In this document: in pieces, positions 34,744-36,704 of the stretch
Position numbering within the stretch: the first letter of the stretch is position 1
Layout of the letters: each line of letters opens with the position of its first letter
Assembly (NCBI RefSeq): GCF_017876595.1
Contig: NZ_JAGIOG010000001.1
Location: 3,472,001-3,536,000 of the forward strand
Direction of reading: 5' to 3'
DNA length: 64,000 nt
DNA from: Aeromicrobium fastidiosum
GTDB lineage: Bacteria; Actinomycetota; Actinomycetes; Propionibacteriales; Nocardioidaceae
The notes under the pieces: generated by a model
Databases searched by the model: none
What the model saw: only the letters and a program-made list of their open reading frames with translations
Told to the model about the DNA's origin: nothing
Made by a program: the position numbers and the translations under genes

Positions 34744-35637
34744 TCAGACCAGGCCGTCGGCCCGCAGCTGCTCGAAGATCTCGCGCGTCGCCTTCGACCG
34801 GTTGAGCGTGATGAAGTGCAGGCCCGGCGCGCCCCCTGCGAGCAGATCGCGGCACAGCTGAGTCGCGAGCTCGATGCCCTTGACCCGGACCGCGGCCTTG
34901 TCGTCGGCGATGGGCTCGATCTGAGCCAGCACCTCGGCCGGCATCTCGGCCCCCGACAGCTCGGCCATGCGGGCGACCTGCGCGAAGTTGAGGATCGGCA
35001 TGATGCCCGGGACGATCGGGATGTCGCTGCCGAGTGCCCGCACGCGCTCGACCAGCCCGAAGTAGTCGGAGGCGCGGAAGAACAGCTGCGTGATGGCGTA
35101 GTCAGCGCCCGCACGCGCCTTGGCCACGAGCACCTCGGCGTCGTGGTCGAGGCTCGCCGCATCGGGGTGTCCCTCGGGGAATGCCGCGACGCCGATCTCG
35201 AAGCCGCCCAGCTGCCTGGCCAGCTCGACGAGGTCGACGGCGTACGTCATGCCGTCGGGGTGCGGCTCCCACGGGGCCCGCGGTCCGCCCTTGGGATCGC
35301 CCCGCAGCGCGAGGACGTTGTCGACGCCGGCGGCGGCGTACTGCTTGAGGACCGACTCGATCTCGCCCCTGGTCTGCGCCACGAGGGTCAGGTGCCCGAC
35401 AGGACGCATCGCCGTCTGCTCAGCGATGCGCGCCGTGATGCGCACGGTGCGCTCCTGGCTGGTTCCCCCGGCCCCGTACGTCACCGACACGAACGTCGGG
35501 TCGAGCGGCTCGAGGTCGGCGATGGTCTGCCACAGCAGGTCCTCGCCGTCGTCGTCCTTGGGCGGGAAGAACTCGAAGGAATAGCTCGGTGCGGGCGCCC
35601 GGAGGGCAGCCACGAGGGAGTGGTCATCGAAAGCCAT
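34744..35637 (-). CDS. metF: Methylenetetrahydrofolate reductase
   Basis: A 297-residue FAD barrel enzyme reducing 5,10-methylene-THF to 5-methyl-THF for methionine synthesis. SFEFFPPKDDDGE near residue 20 is the MetF N-terminal box with the catalytic Glu; SVTYGAGGTSQERTV and LALRGDPKGGPRAPW follow, the latter in the FAD site. VAAFPEGHPDA and YAITQLFF further confirm the family. It is about the size of bacterial MetF. It is transcribed divergently from the polyprenyl synthase from a shared palindromic -10 region and ends 17 bp from the flavoprotein stop. Confidence 0.95.
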   Translation of the reverse strand: MAFDDHSLVAALRAPAPSYSFEFFPPKDDDGEDLLWQTIADLEPLDPTFVSVTYGAGGTSQERTVRITARIAEQTAMRPVGHLTLVAQTRGEIESVLKQYAAAGVDNVLALRGDPKGGPRAPWEPHPDGMTYAVDLVELARQLGGFEIGVAAFPEGHPDAASLDHDAEVLVAKARAGADYAITQLFFRASDYFGLVERVRALGSDIPIVPGIMPILNFAQVARMAELSGAEMPAEVLAQIEPIADDKAAVRVKGIELATQLCRDLLAGGAPGLHFITLNRSKATREIFEQLRADGLV

Positions 35638-35642
35638 GCCGC

Positions 35643-35654
35643 AACGGTACCGTT
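35643..35654. promoter_or_regulatory. Palindromic bidirectional -10 (metF / polyprenyl synthase)
   Basis: AACGGTACCGTT is a perfect 12-bp palindrome in a 23-bp divergent gap. Each strand contains TACCGT (TANNNT): the minus copy at 35644-35649 is 6 nt from the metF ATG and the plus copy at 35648-35653 is 7 nt from the GTG at 35661. Both spacings match the leaderless rule seen elsewhere in the window. It could also be a shared operator. Confidence 0.6.
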
Positions 35655-35660
35655 CAGGAC

Positions 35661-36704
35661 GTGACCTCAGGCGCGGTTGACCCCGACTTCAGAGCCCGGA
35701 TCGATCACACCCTGGTCGAGTTCGTGGAGCGGCAGCGCGGGCTGTTCGCCGCGATGGGACCCGATCTCGACGAGCTCGCCGACGCGGCCGTCTCGTTCGT
35801 CGCGGGCGGCAAGCGCCTGCGCCCGCAGTTCTGCTTCGCCGGCTGGCTCGTCGCCGGCGGCCGTGCCGACGACCCGGCGATCGTCCCAGCCGCGGCGGCA
35901 CTGGAGTGGCTGCAGGGCAGCGCTCTGGTGCACGACGACCTCATGGACGGTTCCGACACGCGTCGCGGCAGGCCGAGCGTCCACCGCGAGTTCGAGGCAC
36001 GGCACCGTGACGGACGTCGTGAGGGTGACTCCGCCGGGTTCGGCGAGTCGGTCGCAGTCCTGCTGGGCGACCTGATGCTGTCGTGGTGCGACGAGATGTT
36101 CCGTGCCAGCGCGCTGCCCACCGTGCCAGCGGCCTTGGCCTTCCTCGACCTGTGCAAGACCGAGGTCGTGGCCGGACAGTTCCTCGACGTCGTCGGCCAG
36201 ACCCGCGCGACGCTCTCGGTCGCCGAGGCGATGCGGGTCGTGCGCTTCAAGTCGGCCAAGTACACCGTCGAACGTCCCCTCCACATGGGCGCGGCACTGG
36301 CCGGGGCGGGCGACGGCCTCATCGCGTCCCTGAGCGACGTGGCCCTCCCCCTCGGCGAGGCCTTCCAGCTGCGCGACGACGTGCTCGGCGTCTTCGGCGA
36401 CCCGGCCGTCACGGGCAAGCCCGCGGGCGACGACCTCCGCGAGGGCAAGCGCACCGTGCTCGTCGCCCGCACCCACGAGCTCACCGACGATGCCGGCCGT
36501 GCCCTCCTGGCCGAGGGGCTCGGCACCGCCGACGCCGTCGCGGCGCTCACCGATCTCATCCGCACCTCGGGGGCGTGGGACGCCGTCGAGGCCGACATCG
36601 CGCGTCTCGAGGCCGAGGCCGACGCGGCGATCGACCGCATCGGCGGCACGGCACCGGAGGTGCTCGGCCCCCTGGCCCTGATCGCGACCCGCCGGAGCCG
36701 CTGA
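35661..36704 (+). CDS. Polyprenyl (geranylgeranyl-type) diphosphate synthase
   Basis: A 347-residue trans-prenyltransferase that condenses isopentenyl diphosphate onto allylic primers. The first Asp-rich motif is DDLMD in VHDDLMDGSDTRRG near residue 95, and the second is DDVLGVFGD near residue 240, matching IdsA-type chain-length enzymes. GGKRLRPQF near residue 55 holds the pyrophosphate-binding Arg. It is most similar in pattern to actinobacterial IdsA/IdsA2 (C15-C20 products). The GTG start is fixed by the TACCGT box 7 nt upstream; a longer reading would run into the divergent gene. Confidence 0.9.
   Translation: MTSGAVDPDFRARIDHTLVEFVERQRGLFAAMGPDLDELADAAVSFVAGGKRLRPQFCFAGWLVAGGRADDPAIVPAAAALEWLQGSALVHDDLMDGSDTRRGRPSVHREFEARHRDGRREGDSAGFGESVAVLLGDLMLSWCDEMFRASALPTVPAALAFLDLCKTEVVAGQFLDVVGQTRATLSVAEAMRVVRFKSAKYTVERPLHMGAALAGAGDGLIASLSDVALPLGEAFQLRDDVLGVFGDPAVTGKPAGDDLREGKRTVLVARTHELTDDAGRALLAEGLGTADAVAALTDLIRTSGAWDAVEADIARLEAEADAAIDRIGGTAPEVLGPLALIATRRSR

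Follow-up and report, generated by a model that had tools for sequence, protein, structure and literature searches.

The DNA analyzed here (the window) is a 64-kb stretch of the Aeromicrobium fastidiosum genome, in which the divergent genes metF and idsA are separated by only a short gap. The metF gene, taken from the open reading frame list and encoding a methylenetetrahydrofolate reductase of 297 aa (Pfam MTHFR, E=1.6e-92), occupies positions 34744-35637 on the minus strand and begins with an ATG at 35637, and idsA, encoding a polyprenyl (isoprenyl) diphosphate synthase of 347 aa (Pfam polyprenyl_synt, E=1.2e-48), occupies positions 35661-36704 on the plus strand and begins with a GTG at 35661. 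The intervening 23 bp (35638-35660) contain a perfect 12-bp palindrome, AACGGTACCGTT, which lies at 35643-35654, reads the same on both strands and encloses a conserved core, ANNNTANNNT, at 35644-35653. Each strand of the core carries TACCGT, a candidate -10 element of the TANNNT type. The metF hexamer is located at 35644-35649 on the minus strand, 6 nt before the ATG, the idsA hexamer is located at 35648-35653 on the plus strand, 7 nt before the GTG, and the bases T35648 and A35649 are common to both. The sequence, coordinates and spacings reported for this gap in the initial annotation were all found to be exact. On the basis of the -10 spacing, transcription of metF is predicted to start at the A of its ATG (35637, minus strand) and that of idsA at the G of its GTG (35661, plus strand), 24 bp away, and both messages are predicted to be leaderless. 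Use of the GTG as the idsA start was consistent with sequence comparison, as the distance between the -10 and the start codon matched in the loci of 48 relatives. Inspection of the gap revealed no Shine-Dalgarno sequence at a functional distance; the sole Shine-Dalgarno-like string, an AGGA 1 nt before the idsA GTG, is too close and is not conserved.

A TANNNT hexamer located ~12 bp before the start codon is the signal of actinobacterial leaderless genes (PMC3160421, PMC3898074) and the mapped start sites of Mycobacterium tuberculosis are described as having this signal and no -35 consensus (PMC3898074). The spacing statistics for A. fastidiosum were collected from 464 kb of the genome, made up of the 64-kb window and twenty 20-kb stretches. 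Before candidate start codons, TANNNT had 42 occurrences at an offset of 6 nt and 26 at 7 nt, whereas the other offsets from 0 to 30 nt averaged ~2.2 each, and 68 of the 256 conservatively called genes carried the hexamer at 6-7 nt. Judged from these counts, leaderless spacing is real in A. fastidiosum and TANNNT at 6-7 nt is its leaderless signal. Both metF and idsA carry TANNNT at this genome-wide peak, which is the mark of a leaderless gene. The figure of about 14 other genes with such spacing, given previously for the window, can be reconciled with the list of 10 other genes in the window that a strict caller produced.

The region upstream of metF was then compared among 47 Aeromicrobium genomes, named genomes, and genomes from elsewhere in the class (further genera, families and orders). 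The core ANNNTANNNT, which amounts to two TANNNT hexamers superimposed on one TA, was present in the gap at 46 of the 47 Aeromicrobium loci with metF and at two loci of sister genera (G062 and G065). In these 48 loci, the distance to metF was 6 or 7 nt, and the distance to idsA was 7 nt (rarely 6, and 8 in one case). The single genus locus lacking the element (L198) belongs to a MAG whose fragmented assembly does not include the metF start, and the absence of the element there is probably due to the broken assembly.

Alignment of the 46 distinct sequences in the metF orientation gave 85 columns, six of which were invariant, and all six lay within the 10-mer (A0, G2, T4, A5, C7 and T9). The bases A0, T4, A5 and T9 are the four that two overlapping TANNNT hexamers demand, leaving G2 and C7 as extra symmetric invariants. 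The stretches separating the -10 from the two start codons vary in sequence but hardly in length, and the predicted start sites lie 23-25 bp apart across the fused clade. No conserved -35-like motif was present at the expected columns on either side of the aligned fused-clade sequences. Conservation in relatives, which had been proposed as a check on the initial reading, was thus borne out for two superimposed TANNNT hexamers together with one G and one C, and not for perfect symmetry, which is limited to some species of the fused clade, most carrying AACGGTATCGTC. As judged by this comparison, it is the conserved form ANNNTANNNT with its fixed spacing on both sides, not the palindrome itself, that is beyond chance, and the perfect symmetry of AACGGTACCGTT may well be chance. 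The metF-idsA arrangement is, on the same comparative grounds, held across the genus Aeromicrobium.

A divergent metF-idsA pair was recovered at almost every locus compared within the class Actinomycetes, although no functional connection between the two enzymes is evident. Among 89 non-fused loci, 66 had TANNNT at leaderless spacing before both metF and idsA, as two separate elements, and the non-fused gaps measured about 30-50 bp in some loci and at least 60 bp in others, reaching 100 bp and beyond. The metF -10 was retained in 83 non-fused relatives and the base that would complete the forward -10 was T in only eight of them, indicating that the double reading is no by-product of the metF promoter. 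Many Nocardioides species (within L052-L111), with metF-idsA gaps of 60-80 bp, were observed to carry a GTCCA-containing block in mid-gap, not clearly placed as a -35 for metF or idsA, and this block is possibly a regulator site. Further fused elements with different letters were identified in two Nocardioidaceae lineages (L057/L118 and L091/L119), the core being AGGCTAGGGT in L057 and AGCGTAGGGT in L091. When the fused state was placed on a quick idsA tree (FastTree), three changes were counted, at least two of which were forced by well-supported branches; this count does not separate gains from losses.

The fused design was also sought at other genes. The pattern CAY-N6-ANNNTANNNT-N7-RTG matched five times in the A. 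fastidiosum genome and not at all in the reversed control, and with this pattern and two other spacings the same design was found at further gene pairs whose two members both have credible coding, among them proC and an SBF-like transporter, a MarR regulator and an MMPL transporter, two S4-domain genes, and a hexapeptide transferase and a membrane protein. Genus-wide, 177 pattern matches, the metF site included, were obtained from 49 genomes compared with 52 matches in the reversed control, and of the 12 recurrent-looking sites that were inspected, nine were flanked in both directions by credible genes. A second fused geometry, TANNNTA (the 18-bp class), gave 120 matches compared with 57 in the control. 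The arrangement is less unusual than initially presented, given these other fused leaderless pairs in the genome and the genus, and given that prpD/Rv1129c of M. tuberculosis is reported as a divergent pair whose two mRNAs are both leaderless (PMC3898074).

Several fused pairs can be described individually. The proC/SBF-like transporter pair is a predicted divergent leaderless pair across a fused -10 (1501-1529 of L176, corresponding to 1710494-1710522 of the genome itself; also L200 and L202), and other Aeromicrobium species have the pair too, with the different cores ACACTAGTGT and ACAGTAGCCT. The two small genes for S4 RNA-binding domains (77 and 121 aa) diverge across a fused -10 (1501-1528 of L180, corresponding to 2570690-2570717 of the genome itself) with almost symmetric flanks, CATGCGGCGACTCTAGACTGGCCGCATG. 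A fused leaderless pair is also apparent in another Aeromicrobium species at about 1231-1259 of L203, where one side by eye resembles 5-formyltetrahydrofolate cyclo-ligase, and the core of this site recurs in several Aeromicrobium genomes.

The extra invariant bases G2 and C7 correspond to G35646 and C35651, and each occupies position -14 of one of the two promoters. As a pair, they are absent from the independent fusions. An extended -10 with G at -14 was considered as a genome-wide rule and found to be unsupported, since G occurs at this position in 25 of the 68 leaderless promoters of this genome, with no general preference. For the metF-idsA locus alone, the invariant bases may reflect either contacts of an extended -10 on the two strands or a bound single-target protein.

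One interpretation of these data, which we regard as very probable, is that the 23-bp gap would act as a housekeeping (sigma-A type) bidirectional promoter, with the geometry of the 23-bp class, in which one shared -10, ANNNTANNNT, gives rise to leaderless mRNAs in both directions; this promoter was probably formed by contraction of older, separate -10s. The single element would be read as the -10 on both strands, with the central T-A in common as the key -12/-11 positions. We infer that a SigA-type RNA polymerase would bind in one orientation or the other, each transcript then beginning at, or within a base of, the start codon, which would make the metF and idsA mRNAs leaderless. The element would probably have arisen from an ancestral divergent leaderless pair whose separate -10s were contracted into a fused one. 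The proposal that one -10 serves two leaderless genes is strongly supported by the comparative evidence, with the start sites themselves deduced from spacing.

It could be that the palindrome is instead an operator for a dimeric regulator controlling both genes, the -10 resemblance being secondary. The core is indeed palindromic in some species, and the G2 and C7 found in all 46 distinct sequences go beyond what TANNNT asks for. However, an operator for a dimeric repressor would be marked by a conserved near-perfect dyad and usually by several targets, and here perfect symmetry is gone in most species. Moreover, the exact 12-mer AACGGTACCGTT occurs once in the 3.93-Mb genome and the relaxed form ACGRTAYCGT only three times, which argues against a regulon operator, and that version was rejected on these counts. 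The four bases required by the -10s (A, T, A and T) are also invariant and locked in spacing to the start codons, and the independent fusions in L057 and L091 were built on other cores. An operator is for these reasons considered improbable.

Even less probable is a situation in which one gene only uses the -10 and the other has a leader and a promoter inside the opposite gene. Both start sites at this locus are predictions, and bacteria often have further promoters inside genes. Nevertheless, the T at position -7 and the spacing are conserved for both genes in the fused clade, the base at the forward -7 position is rarely T in the non-fused relatives (the 8 of 83 given above), and the gap offers no Shine-Dalgarno sequence to a leadered message. 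Finally, the palindrome could have arisen by chance in a short gap; there are 45 perfect palindromes of 12 bp in the 64-kb window, and the palindrome was accordingly discarded as evidence on its own. For the overlap of the -10s, chance is refuted by conservation across the genus of both the superimposed hexamers and their spacing to the two starts, and chance as the whole explanation appears most improbable.

A shared bidirectional promoter thus being the preferred reading, a bolder version of it would hold that ancestral leaderless promoters were repeatedly fused in Actinobacteria, that the resulting obligate either/or transcription of a folate/methionine and an isoprenoid enzyme was selected as a coupling device, and that a symmetric extended -10 (G-14 on both strands) is an added recognition element. 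This version we regard as doubtful. Mutually exclusive binding of polymerase, as put forward in the initial annotation, is physically expected from the geometry. Note, however, that it need not matter for expression, because competition at the bidirectional promoters of Escherichia coli is negligible at basal activity (PMC12825309). CRP was also considered as a common regulator and rejected, as the M. tuberculosis CRP site lies 246.5 bp from the idsA2 start (PMC4117774), which is not an equivalent position.

The locus is of interest for the compactness of its divergent control region, whose shared -10, both start codons and both predicted start sites fit into 29 bp. Together with its relatives it would provide a natural evolutionary series, from separate to fused -10s, for studying if competition between polymerases at bidirectional promoters is under selection or simply tolerated. 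Such a series is easily read from sequence in leaderless bacteria, because the promoter lies at a constant distance from the start codon.

The published start-site maps with which this locus could be compared come from other bacteria, a literature search for Aeromicrobium having found none (the sole match was an sRNA study). Compared with actinobacterial leaderless promoters in general (PMC3160421, PMC3898074), the two metF-idsA promoters share the motif, the 6-7 nt spacing, the lack of a -35 consensus and the GTG or ATG starts, but differ in being superimposed on one T-A step. Bidirectional promoters with a symmetric -10 are known from Warman et al. 2021, work that PMC12825309 and PMC10268837 cite and extend. 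In E. coli, a start-site spacing of 18 bp is preferred, with 10 and 23 bp also frequent, and simultaneous binding of two polymerases is impossible (PMC12825309). The metF-idsA element resembles these promoters in its near-symmetric -10 for both strands, with overlapping key positions in 48 loci, in its predicted starts 24 bp apart (23-25 bp in the clade), which is near the 23-bp optimum and within the reported range of 7-25 bp, and in a geometry that would prevent polymerases from binding both ways simultaneously. In contrast to them, it is found in a high-GC actinobacterium, uses TANNNT rather than TATAAT, serves two protein-coding mRNAs whose predicted 5' ends coincide with the start codon, and is fixed throughout one genus. 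The closest leaderless parallel is the M. tuberculosis pair prpD/Rv1129c, divergent neighbors with mRNAs that are leaderless on both sides according to the mapped start sites (PMC3898074), as is predicted for metF-idsA; the genes are different, however, and the passage describing them indicates no single shared -10. The metF-idsA gap is thus no new kind of switch, and the shared -10 of its two leaderless genes is apparently a so far undescribed, strongly conserved variant that combines two known things, the bidirectional promoter and the leaderless gene.
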